The translations under genes and the position numbers were made by a program. The notes under the pieces were generated by a model, which saw only the letters and a list, made by a program, of their open reading frames with translations, was not told where the DNA came from and did no database searches. This document shows, in pieces, positions 4,849-62,627 of a stretch of 64,000 nucleotides of DNA (positions within the stretch are counted from its first letter, which is position 1; each line of letters starts with the position of its first letter). The stretch is from Tichowtungia aerotolerans (GTDB lineage: Bacteria; Verrucomicrobiota; Kiritimatiellia; Kiritimatiellales; Tichowtungiaceae), in the NCBI RefSeq assembly GCF_009905215.1, contig NZ_CP047593.1, forward strand, positions 62,001 through 126,000. The letters are read 5' to 3'.

Positions 4849-5976
4849 CTATATTGAGTCGGCAATGATCTGAGCTACGCGCTTGGCAGGACTGCCGCTA
4901 CCTAGCAGCTTCTCCAAGGCTTGGAAATTTTCGAGCATGGCGGCGCGCTCCGGCGTATCATTCATCAGCGGGTCAATCGTTGCGGCTAACTTGTTCGGGT
5001 CCATATCCCGCTGAAGCCGCTCAGGCATAATTTCCTTATTTGCGACAATATTGGCGATGCCGAGCCACGGAATGCGGATCAACATACGCACAAACATTTC
5101 GTTCATCCAGCTTCCACGATACACCAATACCGTTGGGCAGTGCAGCAGTGCGGCCTCCAGCGTCGCCGTTCCGGAAGCAACAAACGCGGCATCCGCCTGC
5201 TTAAGCACTTCCCTCGCCTGTCCGGCCACAACAGCCAGGTTGCGCGGCGCCTTTTTGGATTTCTGCAGGATTTCTTCGACCAGTCCAAGACGGCGCTCCG
5301 GAACAGGAACAATAAAAGACAAATCCGGACGGGAATCCTCCAGCAGCCTGGCGGCTTCGAGCAACGGCTCAAGAATATAATGGATTTCCTGTTTTCGGCT
5401 GCCGGGCAGCAGCGCAATTTTTTTCTCGCCGTTCCACGGAAGCGGCTCCGGTTCTGAATCCCGAAATGCACGCAGCTCATCCACCATCGGATGCCCGACA
5501 AAATCAACCTTCAGATCAACGCCTTTAAACACATCAACTTCAAACGGGAAAATCACCATCAGCCGGTCAATAATCTGCGCCATTTTCGGAATCCGTCCCC
5601 GGTTCCACGCCCAGACCTGCGGACAGACATAATAAAGCACTTGAATGCCGCGCTTCTTGAGCTCACTGGCCAGCCGCAGGTTAAACCCGGGGTAATCGAT
5701 TAAAAGAGCGGCATCCGGCTTTCGCCGGTCTGCTCCAGCAAGTACTTCATTAAAAACCTTCTTAAAAAACGGATATCGCCTGAGCACTTCCACAAACCCG
5801 AGCACATCGAGCTCTTTGATATCGTGCAGGGTCTCCACGCCCTCTTCCCTCAGCCTTTCGCCGCCGAGGCCCCAGATATCCAGATCCGAGCGGTTGCGTC
5901 GCAGTTCGCGAATTACATCCGCCCCGTGCATATCTCCCGACGCTTCACCGGCTATAACTAAAAGATTCTTTTTCAT
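4849..5976 (-). CDS. lpxB: lipid-A-disaccharide synthase
   Basis: Joins UDP-diacylglucosamine and lipid X to form the lipid A disaccharide at the inner face of the inner membrane. About 375 residues, the usual family length. N-terminal GEASGD (residues 10-15 from the ATG at 5976), HPMVDE, LLPGSRKQEI in the donor-binding half and ASGTATLEAAL are hallmarks of LpxB (GT19). The start could also be GTG at 5988; neither has a good ribosome-binding site, so I prefer ATG. lpxI lies ~640 bases upstream on the same strand, so both lipid A genes may share control. Its presence implies a Gram-negative outer membrane. Confidence 0.95.
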   Translation of the reverse strand: MKKNLLVIAGEASGDMHGADVIRELRRNRSDLDIWGLGGERLREEGVETLHDIKELDVLGFVEVLRRYPFFKKVFNEVLAGADRRKPDAALLIDYPGFNLRLASELKKRGIQVLYYVCPQVWAWNRGRIPKMAQIIDRLMVIFPFEVDVFKGVDLKVDFVGHPMVDELRAFRDSEPEPLPWNGEKKIALLPGSRKQEIHYILEPLLEAARLLEDSRPDLSFIVPVPERRLGLVEEILQKSKKAPRNLAVVAGQAREVLKQADAAFVASGTATLEAALLHCPTVLVYRGSWMNEMFVRMLIRIPWLGIANIVANKEIMPERLQRDMDPNKLAATIDPLMNDTPERAAMLENFQALEKLLGSGSPAKRVAQIIADSI

Positions 5977-6217
5977 CTCGTCTGACACAGATTCATATTA
6001 GCCACCAAAAACCCAGCGCGGCAAAGCCGTAACCAAAGAATTTTACCAACGAATGGATAAAATCTACGAATGAACAGATTCCCGGCATCCCTGACTCGCA
6101 GGTTTTATTATTCGCTGGTCATCAATATGCTGCAGTGTGCGCAAAGGAAAAACTTGTTTTTCTAAAAAACTACCACAACCGTCTATTCCTCAACAACTAG
6201 AGCGTTTTAACAAGAAC

Positions 6218-6267
6218 TGTAGCCGCTCGCCTGTGGCGAACGAGTCGCCCGCAGGGCGACTGCTACA
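6218..6267. repeat. TGTAG...CTACA element with two internal hairpins, copy 1
   Basis: Outer arms TGTAGC (6218-6223) and GCTACA (6262-6267) enclose two hairpins: TCGCC-TGT-GGCGA (6227-6239) and GTCGCCC-GCA-GGGCGAC (6244-6260). The layout would fold as a three-way junction in RNA or single-stranded DNA. Confidence 0.8.
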
Positions 6268-6277
6268 AAGCGGAGTA

Positions 6278-6427
6278 ATACCAATGATAGTTTGGTTTCG
6301 AGTTATTGCTTCGTCAGAAATGTAGTATCGCTTACCCGAAGGGAAGCGATCTTTGCGGGGAGCACGTTTCCTTCCTTCGTCAGGTAAACGTGACTACATA
6401 AACTCGGAAGCAAACTGAAACCGGTAT
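6278..6427. repeat. TGTAG...CTACA element with two internal hairpins and long outer arms, copy 2
   Basis: Core arms TGTAGT (6321-6326) and ACTACA (6393-6398) directly abut the hairpins ATCGCTT/AAGCGAT (6327-6350) and CACGTTT/AAACGTG (6363-6392). The flanks 6278-6320 and 6399-6427 also form an imperfect inverted repeat (ATACC...AGTTTGGTTTCGAGTT against its mirror). Same architecture and outer ends as 6218-6267 but different hairpin sequences. Confidence 0.78.
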
Positions 6428-6550
6428 AAAAGATGTGGGCACACCTTTTCTTTATTTGCTCTAAACACGGTTTGGTTTCTGCCCGCGAAACACGTAAAAG
6501 CGGCTTCGCCTCACGCGGAAAAATGCATCAGAATCCGATTCGCATTGTTT

Positions 6551-6602
6551 GGCGCCTTGAAAGAGCAACGCGAACAGGCGCGAGAATATTACTCAGATTA
6601 AT
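6551..6602 (+). repeat. dispersed ~51-bp repeat, copy B
   Basis: Counterpart of bases 1362-1412, ending in the same ACTCAGATTAAT. It lies just past the 3' end of lpxI. Confidence 0.7.
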
Positions 6603-6619
6603 GCAGGCTTCTTATCGAG

Positions 6620-7456
6620 TCATAACGGTTGCTTGTTTAAAACCTGAATTGCAATCCCCAGCTGATCCGCACAACGGACCAGTTTTTCCTTTTCGAGCAG
6701 AATTGCGCCGTCCTCTTCGAGAGCAAGACAGGAGACTTTGGCTTTTTTGATGATTTGGAGCGTCTTCTTTCCGATGACCGGAATATCAAAGCGCATGTCG
6801 TGCCCCACCTTGGGAACTTTTACCACTACGGCGCCCGGCCCGCCGAGTTTCCCGCCACGCCGAATGGCCCGGTTGGTTCCTTCAAACGCTTCGACCGCCA
6901 GCACCATGCCCTCTTTCACAACAACAGTCTGGCCGATATCCAGATGCGAAGTATCTTTGATGACGCGCCGACCGATCTGAATATCAGCCAGCTCCCGGTC
7001 ATCCGGTGCCCGGCGGGTGAGCAGGCCGGGAACAGGCATAAAATCCTGCATAAAAGAGCCGGCGGAAAGCAGTGTTACACCGGTTTGTTCAATCCGCTCG
7101 ATAATCGCCCCGAAAATCGTGTGCGCGTTTTTCATCGGAAGCTTCCTGAGCAGGTCTATCAACGCCCGGTCCATGCGAACATTAAACAGGTTGTTCGGAG
7201 TGATCTGTCCCGCCATAACGGCGCTGGTCGATCCGGCCGATTGAACAGCGTCCAGAAGTGCGGTCAACTGTCCGACCCGAATCCAGATGACTTCGTCGGC
7301 CACCTCGCAAATTTCACGACGGGTCTCTCCCTTAAAAGCAACCGCTGTGATCTTCCGAACACCCTGACGGCGGGCTGCGCGCGCCAGCAGGAGCGGATAA
7401 TCGGCCTGTCCGGCAATCAGGGTCAGAGAGTCAGGAATATTGAAATGGCAGGACAT
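6620..7456 (-). CDS. lpxI: UDP-2,3-diacylglucosamine pyrophosphatase LpxI
   Basis: Hydrolyses UDP-2,3-diacylglucosamine to lipid X, the step feeding LpxB; LpxI replaces LpxH in many non-enteric bacteria. 278 residues, the normal size. Recognised from the N-terminal LTLIAGQADYP, the central GQITPNNLF and the C-terminal half with DIGQTVVVKEG, AVEAFEGTNRAI and GPGAVVVKVPK, typical of the DUF1009 family. A 13-base repeat (ATTTCAATATTCC read on this strand) occurs just before and just inside the start, so the first ~8 residues may be repeat-derived. No clear ribosome-binding site. Lies 30 bases beyond the four-helix-bundle gene. Confidence 0.93.
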   Translation of the reverse strand: MSCHFNIPDSLTLIAGQADYPLLLARAARRQGVRKITAVAFKGETRREICEVADEVIWIRVGQLTALLDAVQSAGSTSAVMAGQITPNNLFNVRMDRALIDLLRKLPMKNAHTIFGAIIERIEQTGVTLLSAGSFMQDFMPVPGLLTRRAPDDRELADIQIGRRVIKDTSHLDIGQTVVVKEGMVLAVEAFEGTNRAIRRGGKLGGPGAVVVKVPKVGHDMRFDIPVIGKKTLQIIKKAKVSCLALEEDGAILLEKEKLVRCADQLGIAIQVLNKQPL

Positions 7457-7485: not shown

Positions 7486-7947
7486 TTATGGAATATCGGG
7501 ATTGTCAGATCGGATTGTATAGCTTTCGTTTGATTCTTTGATCAAAAAGGAATCGTCCCACTCATTGGACGCCTGTTTTTCCTGCAGAGATCCAATCAGT
7601 TTTTTCAGGTCATTCTCGAGTTTATATGCCAACGCATCCGTTTCTTCAAATTTTTCTTCCGAAATGTGGTCTGCTGCACAATAAACATGAAGCGTGGAAA
7701 CACTCTCGCCCACAGAGCCTTGGGCAATATTGAGGTACTGTAGATACTCTTTAATACTGCGCCGACAATATCCTTCGGAAATATTACGATGGATGGAATC
7801 AATAGAAGCCACTTGCTGGGATGCGATACGTTTCTGCTCAAATGGAAACGCTCTAAAGGCCTTCCATGTAAGTAAGTACAGGTCGCGGGCATCCTGCCAA
7901 ACCCTTAACCGCATGTATCCCCGATTGGTGTTCTTTCTTTGCTCCAT
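7486..7947 (-). CDS. four-helix-bundle (S23/IVP-like) protein
   Basis: 153 residues. Family hallmarks are the N-terminal RLRVWQDARDLYLLTW, the central FPFEQKRIASQQVA with SIHRNISEGYCR, and the (E/Q)YLQYLNIAQGSVGE segment. The family (TIGR02436-like) was named from ORFs in 23S rRNA intervening sequences, but here the gene is free-standing between the DUF2723 gene (10 bases upstream) and lpxI. The C-terminal ~25 residues are longer than usual and run into AT-rich GGAATATTGAAATG repeats. The function is unknown in the family; an RNA-related role is only guessed. Confidence 0.85.
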   Translation of the reverse strand: MEQRKNTNRGYMRLRVWQDARDLYLLTWKAFRAFPFEQKRIASQQVASIDSIHRNISEGYCRRSIKEYLQYLNIAQGSVGESVSTLHVYCAADHISEEKFEETDALAYKLENDLKKLIGSLQEKQASNEWDDSFLIKESNESYTIRSDNPDIP

Positions 7948-35885: not shown

Positions 35886-38807
35886 TTACACTTCAAAGAA
35901 AGGTGCGGCGTCTGGATAGACACGCAGCTCGATCACGCGAGCAGTTTTCCCTCCGTGGGTCGCATTCACCGTCAGCCGCACCTTGTCAGCAACGACCGGT
36001 TTAAATGAATGACGCCGGAAACGCTGAAAATTATCATTCACACGAGCGACGCTTTGCCACTGCCCGTTCACCCGGCATTCGAGCGTATAATCGCGCACAC
36101 ACTCCTTCGGAAGCCGATTATAGCGCTGGGCCGGCATGGAAAGCGTCAGGTCGGTGTCAAATACACACTGGACGGCCCCAACCTTTGATGGGTTTTCAAG
36201 CACCAACTCGATACTTTGCGGCAGAGCCTGTTTCGGATCGGATTCCCATGTATTGGTTTTCCCGTCAAGAGTCGGACGCGCGATGCCGTTGATGACATTG
36301 TCCGCAGCCCACAGCTCTTCGATCCCGACATTAGGACTGAAGCGTGCATGCATACTGCTCCCGTCCACTTTTTCCCATTCACTCGCCCCGTTATAGATAC
36401 GAAAACTGCCTGCGCGCCCGACATCCCCTGACCGCCACTGGACATCAACGGTTCGGTCCAGAACAACCCACGCATAAGAGGAATTCAGCACGGTCTTAAC
36501 CGGAATCTCCACCCATCCAGCTGTTCCGGCTGGAATGGAATGACTTACGGTAGCCACATTACGTACGGAAGAAAGATCTCCTTCGGCATTGGCTTCACGA
36601 AGATGCATCGTAATCGTTCCACCGCGCTTCGCTTCGAGATAGAGCTGGATGGATTCAAGTTTTTCTCCAGCTTCCCAGGCAAAAAACTCGCCGCGTTCCA
36701 CACTCAGAGGCAGCCAGCGATCGTTTTCTGTGTTCACTTCGGACATCAACTCGCGGGTGCTGCTTGCTCTCACATGGGCGGTGCGCGCCAGGTCCGCGGG
36801 ATCCCGGTTCAAAATTCCCGGCACATACTGGTCATTCTTCAACAAGAGTTGCTGCAGTTCGGTCATATGCTTCTGGTAAACCCCGCGCGGCGTGGTGCCC
36901 CGGTAGAGCGCCAGCGCGGCGGCGGTACCGGCCGCCTGACCGGTCGCAGCGCAGGACGCTTCGATACGCACCGTACCGAGAGCCAGGTGGGTAACACTGG
37001 CACAGCGGCCCGCCATCAGCAGATTCTCGATATTACGCGAATAAAGGCTCCGGTAGGGAATCTGTCCGATCGGAATGTGCGTATCTATCGTAAACGGGCC
37101 TTCGGTGGAAAGAATTCCCCTGTGATGATGCACATCCAGTGTCCAGCCGGTATGGGCGATCACATCGTCGAACTCTCGGTTTTCAATGGCGTCGTTTGCG
37201 GTGAGCACCAGATCTCCCATCAGGCGACGGCTCTCGCGCTTACCCGCCATAAAGGGGATATACTCCAGGCTGTAATTTGCCAGACGTTTGCGCTCGGACC
37301 AGTGGTTCTTAAAATAGTCCCACATCGTATAGTTCACCCGAAACAGTTCATCACGGGCAAACTCGGGATCCCAAAGATCATCAACAATTCCGGGATGTTC
37401 ATACCACCAGGTTCCACCCAATGCCCACGATGTCAGACGCTTGCGTTGACTTTCTTCAGAACCGCCGACGACACGGCCGAACAGCCATCCCTCCGGGAGA
37501 TCGTACAGCCACGGCGGCGGTGTATAAGTCTGCGGCGTGCTGTGTTCCGCACACTTATGAGAAAAGCACCTGCTCATATCCCGACTGCTGCCCCGCAAAC
37601 AGGCACTCATGGTATTCCCGTCGGCCACGGTCGGCGCACCATCCTCTTTATACTCGCTGTAGGCTTCGCGACCGACGCGCTCATCGGCACCGGCGTGATG
37701 GCCGAGCCACGCATCGCCGGAGCAATCGATAAACATTTTTCCGGCAAGCGATTTGCGCTCCCCCGTCAAGGTGTCAACGAGGATCACCTCAGTAATGCGA
37801 TCGCCCTCTTTCTTTACGCCTTCGAGCCACCAGTTTTCGTGCAGCTCCAGCAGAGGTTCTTCCTCGACAAGGGTTTTAAAGGGGCGGCTCATCAGAATAC
37901 ACAACTTCTGCCTGGTCAGCTGGTCTTCGGTCATTCTGTGGAGCTCGAGCCGTCCAGCCTCCTCGATAATGCCGGTTTCACGCACCGGCTTGCCGGGATG
38001 CTTCCTGGCCGCACCTTGCACCGGCACGCCGATTTCGTTACTGGCATTCCCTCCCAGCACGGGACGGCTGGAAACCAGTGCCGTTTTCGCCCCCATGCGT
38101 GCGGCGGCAATCGCCGCCGGAACGCCGGCCGGTCCGGCACCGACCACAATCGTATCATATCGTCCGCCCCGTTTAATGGTATTCGTTACCCCGGTCAACC
38201 GGGCGCGCTCATTGGTAAAGGCATTCACATCCACTGGAGGCCGATAGTTGAGGTCGCGCGTCAGAAGAATGGAAGAACAGCGGCCGAACTGACCGGTTTT
38301 GTCCTGCAGAGCCAGCAGGGCGGAACCCGCCAGCTCATACACCCCGCCATCCTGCCAAACCCAGCCTTTCTCCTGCTGCGCTCCGAATGTACATCCTGAA
38401 TCCCTCCCGTTGACTGCGATCCCGAATGTGCCGGGGGCATGTTCCGGGATCCAGTTGCGCGAGCGCACCCACAGGCGATATTTCCCGGGTTTTACCGCCT
38501 TTAGCTTCAACGTTGCATCCGTCACCGTTTTACTGGTGCCATGCGCAATGAGATAAGAGGATCCCATGAAGCCGACATGCTGGGTGTCCAGGGCCCACCC
38601 TCCATAATGCTGAAAATCGGCCGCATCCGCCCACAAAAAGCCGGGAATCACCTCCAGGACATTGCGCGGCTTTTTACGAAACGGTATCGAGTGATTGAAC
38701 TCGCCACCCTGAATTTCTGACGGATCGAACGAAACCGCCCATCCCGATCCCGCCAGACAAGTCAGCCCCAATGTTCCCGTTTTTACAAAATCACGTCTAT
38801 TTAACAT
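35886..38807 (-). CDS. Tat-exported FAD-dependent oxidoreductase, copy 1
   Basis: 973 residues. Tat signal with NRRDFVKTG at residues 3-11. A ~190-residue sugar-binding-like beta domain precedes the FAD_oxidored core: dinucleotide motif VVGAGPAG (222-228), VLGGNAS, and MFIDCSGDAWLG. The C-terminal ~300 residues are beta-rich with an F5/8 (discoidin)-like end (RVYPDA). Such proteins occur in PVC polysaccharide clusters and act outside the cytoplasm; the substrate is unknown. The start is set by AGAGGA 9 bases before the ATG at 38807; an ATG nine bases further upstream lacks spacing. 98.5% identical to the adjacent copy. Confidence 0.9.
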   Translation of the reverse strand: MLNRRDFVKTGTLGLTCLAGSGWAVSFDPSEIQGGEFNHSIPFRKKPRNVLEVIPGFLWADAADFQHYGGWALDTQHVGFMGSSYLIAHGTSKTVTDATLKLKAVKPGKYRLWVRSRNWIPEHAPGTFGIAVNGRDSGCTFGAQQEKGWVWQDGGVYELAGSALLALQDKTGQFGRCSSILLTRDLNYRPPVDVNAFTNERARLTGVTNTIKRGGRYDTIVVGAGPAGVPAAIAAARMGAKTALVSSRPVLGGNASNEIGVPVQGAARKHPGKPVRETGIIEEAGRLELHRMTEDQLTRQKLCILMSRPFKTLVEEEPLLELHENWWLEGVKKEGDRITEVILVDTLTGERKSLAGKMFIDCSGDAWLGHHAGADERVGREAYSEYKEDGAPTVADGNTMSACLRGSSRDMSRCFSHKCAEHSTPQTYTPPPWLYDLPEGWLFGRVVGGSEESQRKRLTSWALGGTWWYEHPGIVDDLWDPEFARDELFRVNYTMWDYFKNHWSERKRLANYSLEYIPFMAGKRESRRLMGDLVLTANDAIENREFDDVIAHTGWTLDVHHHRGILSTEGPFTIDTHIPIGQIPYRSLYSRNIENLLMAGRCASVTHLALGTVRIEASCAATGQAAGTAAALALYRGTTPRGVYQKHMTELQQLLLKNDQYVPGILNRDPADLARTAHVRASSTRELMSEVNTENDRWLPLSVERGEFFAWEAGEKLESIQLYLEAKRGGTITMHLREANAEGDLSSVRNVATVSHSIPAGTAGWVEIPVKTVLNSSYAWVVLDRTVDVQWRSGDVGRAGSFRIYNGASEWEKVDGSSMHARFSPNVGIEELWAADNVINGIARPTLDGKTNTWESDPKQALPQSIELVLENPSKVGAVQCVFDTDLTLSMPAQRYNRLPKECVRDYTLECRVNGQWQSVARVNDNFQRFRRHSFKPVVADKVRLTVNATHGGKTARVIELRVYPDAAPFFEV

Positions 38808-38898
38808 GCAACACATCCTCTTCTATAAATTAAATTTTAATATAGCAAATAACCGGAAAACCGCCCGACCATCTGGTTCTAAATTCTGACCATGTAAC

Positions 38899-41800
38899 TA
38901 TCAATTCAAATGAATCATCACGGCTCCGCGGCAGACTACGGAATGAATATCGACGCCGGGACCGACCAACCCTACCTTGTCTTCTGGGTATAGTGATCTC
39001 CTTTACTTACTCCATCGGCAGCTTAGCAATAGAAGATCACTCCCGTTCTTGTTTTTGTAAAAGCGACCCAGAAACATTTACAGTCCAAGGCCTCAGCAAT
39101 TAAAAAATCTCAGCTTACACTTCAAAGAAAGGTGCGGCGTCTGGATAGACACGCAGCTCGATCACGCGAGCAGTTTTCCCTCCGTGGGTCGCATTCACCG
39201 TCAGCCGCACCTTGTCCGCAACAACCGGTTTAAATGAATGACGCCGGAAACGCTGAAAATTATCACTCACACGAGCGACGCTTTGCCACTGCCCGTTCAC
39301 CCGGCACTCGAGCGTATAATCGCGCACACACTCCTTCGGAAGCCGATTATAGCGCTGCATCGGCATGGAAACCGTCAGGTCGGTGTCAAATACACACTGG
39401 ACGGCCCCAACCTTTGATGGGTTTTCAAGCACCAACTCGATACTTTGCGGCAGAGCCTGTTTCGGATCGGATTCCCATGTGTTGGTTTTCCCGTCAAGTG
39501 TCGGACGCGCGATGCCGTTGATGACATTGTCCGCAGCCCACAGCTCTTCGATCCCGACATTGGGACTGAAGCGGGCATGCATACTGCTCCCGTCCACTTT
39601 TTCCCATTTACTCGCCCCGTTGTAGATACGAAAACTGCCTGCGCGCCCGACATCCCCTGACCGCCACTGGACATCAACGGTTCGGTCCAGAACAACCCAC
39701 GCATAAGAGGAATTCAGCACGGTCTTAACCGGAATCTCCACCCATCCAGCTGTTCCGGCTGGAATGGAATGACTTACGGTAGCCACATTACGTACGGAAG
39801 AAAGATCTCCTTCGGCATTGGCTTCACGAAGATGCATAGTAATCGTTCCACCGCGCTTCGCTTCGAGATAGAGCTGGATGGATTCCAGTTTTTCTCCAGC
39901 TTCCCAGGCAAAAAACTCGCCGCGTTCCACACTCAGAGGCAGCCAGCGATCGTTTTCTGTGTTCACTTCGGACATCAACTCGCGGGTGCTGCTTGCTCTC
40001 ACATGGGCGGTGCGCGCCAGGTCCGCAGGATCCCGGTTCAAAATTCCCGGCACATACTGGTCATTCTTCAACAAGAGTTGCTGCAGTTCGGTCATATGCT
40101 TCTGGTAAACCCCGCGCGGCGTGGTGCCCCGGTAGAGCGCCAGCGCGGCGGCGGTACCGGCCGCCTGACCGGTCGCAGCGCAGGACGCTTCGATACGCAC
40201 CGTACCGAGAGCCAGGTGGGTAACACTGGCACAGCGGCCCGCCATCAGCAGATTCTCGATATTACGCGAATAAAGGCTCCGGTAGGGAATCTGTCCGATC
40301 GGAATGTGCGTATCGATCGTAAACAGGCCTTCGGTGGAAAGAATTCCCCTGTGATGATGCACATCCAGTGTCCAGCCGGTATGGGCGATCGCATCGTCGA
40401 ACTGTCGGTTTTCAATGGCGTCGTTTGCGGTGAGCACCAGATCTCCCATCAGGCGACGGCTCTCGCGCTTACCCGCCATAAAGGGGATATACTCCAGGCT
40501 GTAATTTGCCAGGCGTTTGCGCTCGGACCAGTGGTTCTTAAAATAGTCCCACAGCGTATAGTTCACCCGAAACAGTTCATCACGGGCAAACTCGGGATCC
40601 CAAAGATCATCGACAATTCCGGGATGTTCATACCACCAGGTTCCACCCAATGCCCACGATGTCAGACGCTTGCGTTGACTTTCTTCAGAACCGCCGACGA
40701 CACGGCCGAACAGCCATCCCTCCGGGAGATCGTACAGCCACGGCGGCGGTGTATAAGTCTGCGGCGTGCTGTGTTCCGCACACTTATGAAAAAAGCACCT
40801 GTTCATATCCCGACTACCGCCCCGCAAACAGGCACTCATGGTATTCCCGTCGGCCACGGTCGGCGCACCATCCTCTTTATACTCGCTGTAGGCTTCGCGA
40901 CCGACGCGCTCATCGGCACCGGCGTGATGACCGAGCCACGCATCGCCGGTGCAATCGATAAACATTTTTCCGGCAAGCGATTTGCGCTCTCCCGTCAAGG
41001 TGTCAACGAGGATCACCTCAGTAATGCGATCGCCCTCTTTCTTTACGCCTTCGAGCCACCAGTTTTCGTGCAGCTCCAGCAGAGGTTCTTCCTCGACAAG
41101 GGTTTTAAAGGGGCGGCTCATCAGAATACACAACTTCTGCCTGGTCAGCTGGTCTTCGGTCATTCTGTGGAGCTCGAGCCGTCCAGCCTCCTCGATAATG
41201 CCGGTTTCACGCACCGGCTTGCCGGAATGTTTCCTGGCCGCACCTTGCACCGGCACGCCGATTTCGGCACTGGCATTCCCTCCCAGCACGGGACGGCTGG
41301 AAACCAGTGCCGTTTTCGCCCCCATGCGTGCGGCGGCAATCGCCGCCGGAACGCCGGCCGGTCCGGCACCGACCACAATCGTATCATATCGTCCGCCCCG
41401 TTTAATGGCATTCGTTACCCCGGTCAACCGGGCGCGCTCATTGGTAAAGGCATTCACATCCACTGGAGGCCGATAGTTGAGGTCGCGCGTCAGAAGAATG
41501 GAAGAACAGCGGCCGAACTGACCGGTTTTGTCCTGCAGAGCCAGCAGGGCGGAACCCGCCAGCTCATATACCCCGCCATCCTGCCAAACCCAGCCTTTCT
41601 CCTGCTGCGCTCCGAATGTACATCCTGAATCCCTCCCGTTGACTGCGATCCCGAATGTGCCGGGGGCATGTTCCGGGATCCAGTTGCGCGAGCGCACCCA
41701 CAGGCGATATTTCCCGGGTTTTACCGCCTTTAGCTTCAACGTTGCATCCGTCACCGTTTTACTGGTGCCATGCGCAATGAGATAAGAGGATCCCATGAAG

Positions 41801-42123
41801 CCGACATGCTGGGTGTCCAGGGCCCACCCTCCATAATGCTGAAAATCGGCCGCATCCGCCCACAAAAAGCCGGGAATCACCTCCAGGACATTGCGCGGCT
41901 TTTTACGAAACGGTATCGAGTGATTGAACTCGCCACCCTGAATTTCTGACGGATCGAACGAAACCGCCCATCCCGATCCCGCCAGACAAGTCAGCCCCAA
42001 TGTTCCCGTTTTTACAAAATCACGTCTATTTAACATGCAACACATCCTCTTCTATAAATTAAATTTTAATATAGCAAATAACCGGAAAACCGCCCGACCA
42101 TCTGGTTCTAAATTCTGATCATG
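38899..42123. repeat. 3.2-kb tandem duplication, unit 2
   Basis: Second unit of the tandem pair. Its end (CATG at 42120-42123) matches 38891-38894 of unit 1; beyond it the sequences diverge at once. Confidence 0.95.
39115..42036 (-). CDS. Tat-exported FAD-dependent oxidoreductase, copy 2
   Basis: Same architecture and start signal as copy 1 (ATG 42036). 15 amino-acid differences among 973, for example Asn to Ala in the VLGGNAS/E loop (GGNASA), Ser to Thr in FIDC(S/T)GD, Ser to Phe in CF(S/F)HKC, Pro to Leu in TEG(P/L)FTID. No stop or frameshift in either copy, so both are probably functional. Upstream (right) lies the CstA-type gene with a 107-base gap beyond the unit. Confidence 0.9.
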   Translation of the reverse strand: MLNRRDFVKTGTLGLTCLAGSGWAVSFDPSEIQGGEFNHSIPFRKKPRNVLEVIPGFLWADAADFQHYGGWALDTQHVGFMGSSYLIAHGTSKTVTDATLKLKAVKPGKYRLWVRSRNWIPEHAPGTFGIAVNGRDSGCTFGAQQEKGWVWQDGGVYELAGSALLALQDKTGQFGRCSSILLTRDLNYRPPVDVNAFTNERARLTGVTNAIKRGGRYDTIVVGAGPAGVPAAIAAARMGAKTALVSSRPVLGGNASAEIGVPVQGAARKHSGKPVRETGIIEEAGRLELHRMTEDQLTRQKLCILMSRPFKTLVEEEPLLELHENWWLEGVKKEGDRITEVILVDTLTGERKSLAGKMFIDCTGDAWLGHHAGADERVGREAYSEYKEDGAPTVADGNTMSACLRGGSRDMNRCFFHKCAEHSTPQTYTPPPWLYDLPEGWLFGRVVGGSEESQRKRLTSWALGGTWWYEHPGIVDDLWDPEFARDELFRVNYTLWDYFKNHWSERKRLANYSLEYIPFMAGKRESRRLMGDLVLTANDAIENRQFDDAIAHTGWTLDVHHHRGILSTEGLFTIDTHIPIGQIPYRSLYSRNIENLLMAGRCASVTHLALGTVRIEASCAATGQAAGTAAALALYRGTTPRGVYQKHMTELQQLLLKNDQYVPGILNRDPADLARTAHVRASSTRELMSEVNTENDRWLPLSVERGEFFAWEAGEKLESIQLYLEAKRGGTITMHLREANAEGDLSSVRNVATVSHSIPAGTAGWVEIPVKTVLNSSYAWVVLDRTVDVQWRSGDVGRAGSFRIYNGASKWEKVDGSSMHARFSPNVGIEELWAADNVINGIARPTLDGKTNTWESDPKQALPQSIELVLENPSKVGAVQCVFDTDLTVSMPMQRYNRLPKECVRDYTLECRVNGQWQSVARVSDNFQRFRRHSFKPVVADKVRLTVNATHGGKTARVIELRVYPDAAPFFEV

Positions 42124-53965: not shown

Positions 53966-54010
53966 GTAGCAGTCTCCGCAAAGTATCCGCGGGAGACTTC
54001 ACTTCGCCGC
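53966..54010. repeat. probable half-element of the TGTAG...CTACA family
   Basis: GAGTAGC followed by hairpin AGTCTCC ... GGAGACT (53971-53998), then TTCACTTCGCC. Read against the reverse complement of 6218-6267 this keeps TAGCAGTC, pairing stem and TTCGCC, but lacks the second hairpin's partner arm and the closing CTACA. Confidence 0.45.
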
Positions 54011-60872: not shown

Positions 60873-62627
60873 CTATCTGTCACGAATTTGATTGTTGTCC
60901 TGCACGACACCCAGGCAGCGATTCAAAAGCATGGGCTTTGCGTGCGGTGCGGCTCCCGGAAGAACAGCGATCTTGTTATCTTTAATCAGCACATCCCGAC
61001 AACAGGCCAGACTGACCCCCGCGTGCCGTTTGATTTTAATGTTGTTGTCCTCAATCAAAATGTTGCGCATGGGCGAATTTTCCAGGTCCTGCTGTTTCAC
61101 GCCCTGCCCTGTGTTCAGCTTGATGGCTTCCCGTCCCGTTCGGCGAATCCTGTTTCCACGGATAATCAGTCCTTCGGGCAGCGGCCCGCAGACATAATGG
61201 CCCTGAGTGCCGCCGCACACTGCCGAACCGTGCACACCATCCACCAAATTATCCACGAAAGCGCAGTTCGGCGCACTCAGCAGCAGCGCATGCCGCCGCT
61301 GCGGCTTAAAGGTATTGTTGCGGATTACACTGCCCGCACCGCAGGCGCTCAGGTTGAAAACCTGCGTGGCAGCCAGGTCGCCCTTCTGCCCGAATTCAAT
61401 ATTTCCCGGAAGCGGTTCGCTGAACCGCAGCGTGTATGACTTGCTGCGCCGTTTTTTGTCAGCGAATTGCGGCACCACCGACTGGACAGTCAGCTTGCCG
61501 ATAAACACTCCGGCCTGCTGATTCCAGAAACCAATCGTATCCCCCGGACGGTAGAAATCCCACGGCTCGCCGTGATCGGGGCGACCGATTTTCAGCGCAC
61601 CGTCATCGGTTAGCTCATTGCAGACCGAACCGAGCACAAAAATATTGATCGAATCATCCATCATTCCCTCAAAATAGCATTTCTCGATCAGGATCGGACC
61701 GCGATTACTGCGGCAGTGAATGCCGTCGCGTACCGTCGCGACAATGCGGTCTGAACCGGGTTTAATTCGATTGACAATACCGCGCAGAACAATCGGGCCT
61801 TCGTTATGGCCTGGCGAAACATTCATGCCGGCGCTGCTGTAGGCGGTAATGTTTTCCACCAGGCAGTCGCTGTTGCGCGTAATTGCCATATTCGAATAAA
61901 AGGTTCCGTACATCGCATGAGTTACCACCCGATCCCCCACCGAAAGATTCTTGATCGTTTTTTGATAGGCAGGATCCACCGTATAACGAATCAAATGCTG
62001 ATCTTCCAGCAGCTGGAAAGTCGTCTTCAGATGATCGTTACCCAGCTCTTCAAGGTATTTCATCTCGTTGCGGAAAGGATCGAGAATAAACACCACCGGA
62101 TCCAGATGAACCGGCTTCTTCGTCTTCGGGAAACCCGCCGAATAAGGATAGCCTTCATGCGGCCGCACGGTAAACGTCGAAAAATCATCCGCGACCTCAA
62201 TGATGTCACCCTGCATGTGGTGCGGCATGGTATAGTCCAGTGTAAAATTTTTCACCTGTACCCGTCGGCAGTTGTTCAGGGTCAGGAACGTGTTCGACGG
62301 ATGCATGCGAAACGTCGCACCCCGGCCGTCCACAACCAGATCGTCCAATCCATCCAGGTAGAGATGTGCCCCCGGGCGCAACGCCTGATGCGCGCTAAAG
62401 TCATAGACGCCCTTTTGAAACACCACCTGCGCGCCCGGCCCGGCGGCAATCGCCTGATCCAGCACCGCCTTCACGCCCGGCCAGTCATCGCCTCCGCTCG
62501 GTGCGAACACCCGAAACACCTTGCCAGCATCCGACACAGGCTTCTGAATGGAGATTTCCGGCACGACGCGCTCCGCCATCGCACTCGCACAGAGCCCCAT
62601 TATGATCAAAACCATTTTCTTTTTCAT
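60873..62627 (-). CDS. secreted beta-helix protein, GH110-like
   Basis: 584 residues. Signal peptide (KKKMVLIIMGLCASAMA), parallel beta-helix with DGIHCRSNRGPILIEKCYFEGMMDDSINIF, the same DD..N motif as the 54032 protein and as GH110 alpha-1,3-galactosidases. Opening module FAPSGGDDWPGVKAVLDQAI follows the pectate-lyase superfamily fold. Start at ATG 62627 (GGGTGG 4 bases before); an upstream GTG is also possible. First gene of the catabolic block in transcription order. Sugar hydrolase is the likely class, not proven. Confidence 0.83.
   Translation of the reverse strand: MKKKMVLIIMGLCASAMAERVVPEISIQKPVSDAGKVFRVFAPSGGDDWPGVKAVLDQAIAAGPGAQVVFQKGVYDFSAHQALRPGAHLYLDGLDDLVVDGRGATFRMHPSNTFLTLNNCRRVQVKNFTLDYTMPHHMQGDIIEVADDFSTFTVRPHEGYPYSAGFPKTKKPVHLDPVVFILDPFRNEMKYLEELGNDHLKTTFQLLEDQHLIRYTVDPAYQKTIKNLSVGDRVVTHAMYGTFYSNMAITRNSDCLVENITAYSSAGMNVSPGHNEGPIVLRGIVNRIKPGSDRIVATVRDGIHCRSNRGPILIEKCYFEGMMDDSINIFVLGSVCNELTDDGALKIGRPDHGEPWDFYRPGDTIGFWNQQAGVFIGKLTVQSVVPQFADKKRRSKSYTLRFSEPLPGNIEFGQKGDLAATQVFNLSACGAGSVIRNNTFKPQRRHALLLSAPNCAFVDNLVDGVHGSAVCGGTQGHYVCGPLPEGLIIRGNRIRRTGREAIKLNTGQGVKQQDLENSPMRNILIEDNNIKIKRHAGVSLACCRDVLIKDNKIAVLPGAAPHAKPMLLNRCLGVVQDNNQIRDR
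62003..62019. repeat. TTTCCA-type palindrome, one mismatch, in coding DNA
   Basis: CTTCCAGCAGCTGGAAA inside the GH110-like gene (encoding FQLLED). The only near-perfect member found right of 35 kb. Confidence 0.4.

Follow-up and report, generated by a model that had tools for sequence, protein, structure and literature searches.

The window analysed here comprises 64,000 nucleotides of Tichowtungia aerotolerans, positions 62001–126000 of its single-contig 3.88-Mb genome (G000:C1; coordinates below refer to the window unless they carry the prefix of a genome). Near its start the lipid A genes lpxI and lpxB run in the same direction on the minus strand, with two structured elements, element 1 and element 2, both between them (Table 1). 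In all nine same-genus relatives whose junction was read, the two genes overlap or lie 3 bp apart, and the T. aerotolerans spacer is therefore evidently extra DNA, filled with repeats and largely derived from insertions, which splits a tight gene pair. Besides the two elements it holds a repeat with an 83% copy at G000:2087564–2087665 and relatives in many related genomes (6008–6122), and another with a 90% copy at G000:1391489–1391540 (6551–6602). Just upstream of lpxI sits a gene for a protein of the 23S rRNA-intervening-sequence family (7486–7947). Elsewhere in the window, two adjacent genes for 976-aa FAD-dependent oxidoreductases (35886–38816 and 39115–42045; 2894 of 2931 bases identical) are a recent tandem duplication.

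Table 1. Features of the lpxI–lpxB region, in window coordinates.
Feature	Position	Strand	Basis or remark
lpxB	4849–5988	-	gene call in the window
lpxI–lpxB spacer	5989–6619		631 bp; both elements and other repeats (6008–6122, 6551–6602)
Wider stretch in common with the family A copy at G000:2453756–2453836, including left flank AGAGCGTTTTAA...	6198–6278	+	94% identity over 81 bp
Element 1, family A REPIN, head-to-head doublet of GTAG-tagged palindromes	6218–6267	+	copies, fold, RAYT flanking in G011
Element 1 left REP, GTAG foot and GTTCGCC/GGCGAAC-type hairpin	6218–6242	+	sequence, alignment of copies
Element 1 right REP, inverted, GTAG foot and AGTCGCCC/GGGCGACT hairpin	6243–6267	-	sequence, alignment of copies
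TAA target duplication, left of mini-transposon	6276–6278		direct reading; paralogous empty site
Mini-transposon (MITE), 148 bp, imperfect 26-bp TIRs TACCAATGATAGTTTGG.../TACCGGTTTCAGTTTGC..., element 2 inside	6279–6426	+	second full copy; TIR family in relatives
Element 2, family B REPIN	6321–6398	+	REP halves on both sides of RAYT gene G000:932244–932702; armless REPIN at G000:2089177
Element 2 left REP, GTAGT-ATCGCTT-A-CCCGAAGGG-AAGCGAT, bulged hairpin	6321–6350	+	97% identical to RAYT-flanking REPs G000:932110 and G000:932708
Element 2 right REP, inverted, GTAGT-CACGTTT-A-CC...GG-AAACGTG	6363–6398	-	bulged hairpin class as RAYT-flanking REP G000:932787
TAA target duplication, right of mini-transposon	6427–6429		direct reading
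Target sequence resumed past the mini-transposon, ending within TTTTCTTTA	6430–6457	+	88% identity to G000:2453825–2453864, directly after a family A copy
lpxI	6620–7456	-	gene call in the window

Both elements are real in the form in which an earlier note on this DNA had described them, as adjacent units with TGTAG and CTACA ends and two inner hairpins each, and as single-stranded DNA they fold far better than their dinucleotide shuffles (z −4.7 for element 1 and −3.7 for element 2, or −5.6 once the outer arms of element 2 are included). The ends read TGTAGC...GCTACA in element 1 and TGTAGT...ACTACA in element 2, so that of the 6-bp outer arms said to be the same in both only the five bases TGTAG are common, the sixth being different. 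The layout TGTAG-N40-70-CTACA has three matches in the window, where 0.19 would be expected, the third match (2232–2299) lying inside an ORF and looking like chance; across the genome this loose pattern occurs at 25 places, many of them devoid of hairpins, and alone it is undiagnostic. A third, degenerate half with a compensating stem change had also been proposed at 53966–54010. A hairpin exists there (z −2.2) and is similar to element 1's right half, but the proposal is not statistically supported: with the covariance model of element 1 the hairpin scores only 4.8 bits (E = 0.15 over 221 bases), and at the level of the window it goes unreported.

Element 1 is not confined to this spacer, and the absence of further copies, which the earlier note had named as a refutation, is excluded. 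A DNA search returns 11 matches in the genome at E < 1e-3, and a covariance model based on 15 members of the family, which we call family A, finds the two inverted REPs as one repeated unit in 10 clear genome copies (E ≤ 4.5e-20), with one more at 7e-4. The copies are mostly extragenic, most overlapping no ORF of at least 90 aa, and the few overlaps concern mechanical ORFs, at least one of them an artefact of an alternative start. Their sequence is well conserved. The notion of shape kept without sequence holds only between elements 1 and 2, since these are members of two distinct REP families with a common tag, and not within either family. Tested for stem covariation, the family A copies show no excess over shuffles and are too alike to show it either way. 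Close copies are present in the same-genus genomes G009, G011 and G013.

Which enzyme could serve family A then? On contig C23 of G011 an intact family A REPIN ends 13 bp upstream of the start of an ORF for residues 1–77 of a RAYT (REP-associated tyrosine transposase). Contig C50 carries the C-terminal end of a RAYT (GLVEKAVDWPYAGEVIEIGL), behind which come another family A copy and, after it, a GHMP-kinase gene. The genes upstream on C23 and downstream on C50 are 85% and 62% identical, respectively, to two GHMP-kinase genes in T. aerotolerans, which enclose a single family A copy at G000:1910840 and no RAYT. In the simplest reading, a RAYT once lay between two directly repeated family A REPINs and was apparently lost in T. 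aerotolerans, leaving one REPIN; the family A RAYT itself is known only as this broken gene on two G011 contigs, joined by synteny. Over its readable N-terminal part it is about 50% identical to the RAYT that T. aerotolerans does possess. Other Y1 transposase-like genes of the T. aerotolerans genome were rejected as partners of family A, since no matching hairpins lie near three of them (L001, L002 and L003), and a further candidate (L005) has only unrelated GTAG/GCAG-tagged hairpins.

The RAYT gene of T. aerotolerans is intact, encodes 152 aa (G000:932244–932702) and has family B REPs, the kind that form element 2, on both sides. The protein scores 98.4 bits with NF047646 (NCBI REP_Tyr_transpos, cut-off 80), also matches Pfam Y1_Tnp, and resembles TnpArep of PDB entry 4er8 in sequence (E 8e-11). 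Its HUH motif (HIH; H68 and H70) and Y124 are invariant in ten relatives; by sequence it combines the Y1/HUH type, the HxH motif, a tyrosine in the catalytic position and the family model with flanking cognate REPs. The closest named relatives are in Pontiella sulfatireligans and other Pontiellaceae/Kiritimatiellales. Direct reading of RAYT flanks in P. sulfatireligans, Pontiellaceae B12227 and several MAGs revealed bulged GTAG hairpins of the family B kind alongside the genes, with differing stem letters, and a TGTAG hairpin lies within the nearby 1.5 kb at 18 of 28 RAYT loci from related genomes, compared with a mean of 0.14 per 1.5 kb in parts of these loci far from the gene. P. sulfatireligans (L048) carries tandem RAYT genes about 0.4 kb apart, the second of which matches in two pieces, suggesting a frameshift.

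Family B, too, repeats as a doublet of inverted REPs, at G000:68321 (element 2 itself), about G000:2089177 and G000:2428038. Altogether there are one free doublet, two composite doublets (those enclosed by outer arms) and a few single or paired REPs; the copies at G000:2089177 and G000:749465 are without the arms. The GTAG tetranucleotide is unpaired 5' of the palindrome in a single REP but can base-pair with its partner's CTAC when the doublet folds. Among 39 distinct related REPs of the element 2 type, whose hairpins were picked by conserved anchors only, the three stem positions that vary form Watson-Crick pairs in 37, 38 and 38 cases, more than in any of 2000 shuffles, and A-T, C-G, T-A and G-C are all found at these positions. 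The REPs share kinship and the independent stem changes are fewer than these raw counts; the element 2 family nonetheless shows strong compensatory changes across related REPs. The stem covariation that the earlier note asked for is therefore present in family B; the element 1 copies are too uniform to speak either way.

Element 2 has, as had been noticed, long imperfect outer arms (6278–6304 and 6401–6427, 74% complementary). They correspond to the TIRs of a mini-transposon, in which 19 of 26 positions match and whose ends carry TACCAATTTCAGTTTGGTTT. A second composite of arms and REPIN, 85% identical, lies at G000:2428038–2428200 with TGA on both sides, and a 3-bp TNA duplication is seen at all eight readable copies of the outer element. 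Target duplications, about which the earlier note had asked, are seen at the TIR mini-transposon around element 2. The element 1 copy at G000:2453770 shares flanking sequence with the one in the window and reads AAAGCGGAATAAAAAATGTGG in place of the 148-bp insertion, representing a paralogous empty site, read for the enclosing mini-transposon only. Together with the TAA duplications, this empty site shows that the composite inserted beside element 1. Since both composites have the same REPIN-arm junction, at least on the left, where conservation is better, the REPIN most likely travelled inside the mini-transposon.

The arm family is found in the related genomes G003, G005, G007 and G018 around other inner palindromes, with 74–110 bp from end to end. 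The inner palindrome there reads GCAGGC...GATACGTACC...GCCTGC (L174, L175 and L176 in G003, L171 in G005, L172 in G007, L168 in G018), and in one of the G003 copies the core is shorter and forms one hairpin instead of two. Another case of a palindrome within a palindrome is at G000:C1:1245032–1245108 (L016), where a TGTAGCCGTTC...GAACGGCTACA element has a GCAGGC/GATACGTACC-type palindrome in its middle. The arm-like matches at G000:3769052 and on G012:C69, located within coding DNA or next to it, are probably due to chance. A TIR pattern search of 43 genomes of the order gave short paired copies and single matches and no coding element, so that the parent transposase was not found among them. 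The outer element may be akin to the MITEs of IS5-like, IS1031-type insertion sequences, with their TNA duplications.

We propose, with a probability of roughly 0.9, that both elements are REPINs of two families, spread by RAYTs, and that element 2 sits in a mini-transposon that lies beside element 1. REPINs are small non-autonomous mobile elements spread by RAYTs (TnpA-REP), transposases of the HUH superfamily. Judging from published biochemistry (PMC8266576), the enzyme would bind the GTAG foot and the hairpin in single-stranded DNA, cut, and then transfer the doublet to a new site, while the composite as a whole was probably mobilised through its inverted repeats, by a transposase so far unseen. 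A structure-recognising transposition mechanism, as the earlier note had suspected, was thus largely the right idea: family B REPs flank a RAYT on both sides, a relative has a decayed RAYT flanked by the family A REPIN, and RAYTs are reported to recognise single-stranded GTAG hairpins (PMC8266576). Several points count against the REPIN explanation: the low copy numbers, about 10 in family A and few in family B, the broken state of the one family A RAYT, the family A stems that covary no more than shuffles, and the outer repeats for which the search gave no transposase. A more elaborate version, in which two unrelated transposition systems share one vehicle, the RAYT acting on single strands and a TIR transposase on the composite, and in which RAYT-type elements and other palindromes preferentially settle in the middle of palindromes because these expose single-stranded loops, appears to us rather doubtful.

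Could the structures instead be kept for their shape as RNA, as a terminator, mRNA stabiliser or regulatory RNA in an lpxI–lpxB transcript? They do lie between co-directional genes and fold well, and effects of REPs on transcripts have been reported in other systems (PMC3733652, PMC8266576). However, an Rfam scan of the window gave no match at all, the spacer is missing in the relatives with their tight lpxI/lpxB junctions, and copies are scattered over unrelated places in the genome and beside RAYTs. Selection as RNA is therefore very unlikely as the origin of the elements, while a secondary effect on expression is possible. It is even harder to believe that element 2, arms and hairpins together, forms a single ordinary MITE belonging to a DDE transposase, with the GTAG hairpins merely as its body. 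Such a view would fit its position inside a MITE with TNA duplications and the other palindromes that the TIR family holds in relatives, but element 1 and the family B copies at G000:2089177 and G000:749465 have no arms, and it is GTAG hairpins, not arms, that flank the RAYT genes. As for chance palindromes, the only point in their favour is that the loose TGTAG...CTACA layout is not rare across the genome, and we give them practically no weight, as the copies are many and similar (E down to 1e-28 and 1e-45), the folds stand far from the shuffles (z −3.7 to −5.6) and the stems covary.

The reading as two REPIN families agrees in most respects with systems already described. REPINs, or REP doublets, with their RAYTs are known (Bertels and Rainey, 2011; PMC3116915), and the elements reported here resemble them in being hairpin-rich units of two inverted REPs, in having mostly extragenic copies and in their association with RAYTs. 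They differ from them in having far fewer copies, in forming two families of which one has apparently lost its RAYT in this genome, and in occurring in Kiritimatiellota rather than mainly in gammaproteobacteria. GTAG repeats, their head-to-head dimers, their association with RAYTs and their presence in the PVC superphylum have been described as well (PMC3733652), and the unpaired GTAG foot, the stems of 7–8 bp, the heterodimers and the REPs flanking a tyrosine transposase gene are the same here. Even the nesting of element 2 has a parallel in Anabaena variabilis, where many GTAG dimers lie inside longer palindromes (PMC3733652); in contrast to that account, the enclosing palindrome is here a TIR family with TNA duplications, which is also found without REPs in relatives. 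By hairpin shape, family B with its unpaired bulge can be likened to TnpA-REP group 2 and family A with its near-perfect palindromes to group 3 (PMC8266576), although the two RAYTs in our case share about 50% identity in the N-terminal part that can be read. The outer element shares TIRs of about 26 bp, a short non-coding body and the TNA duplication with MITEs of TNA-duplicating insertion sequences, but differs in that its parent transposase was not found.

A search of the open-paper literature returned no earlier description of RAYTs or GTAG-REPs in Kiritimatiellota. What is added to the known picture is the organism group, two pairs of REP family and RAYT, and a composite with target duplications. 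GTAG-REP/RAYT systems are thereby extended to Kiritimatiellota, with clear pairing of enzyme and repeat and with stem covariation, and their natural history can be read at two places: one where a RAYT was apparently lost from between two repeats and a single REPIN remains, and one where a REPIN, most likely riding in a target-duplicating mini-transposon, inserted next to a second REPIN in the gap between lpxI and lpxB.
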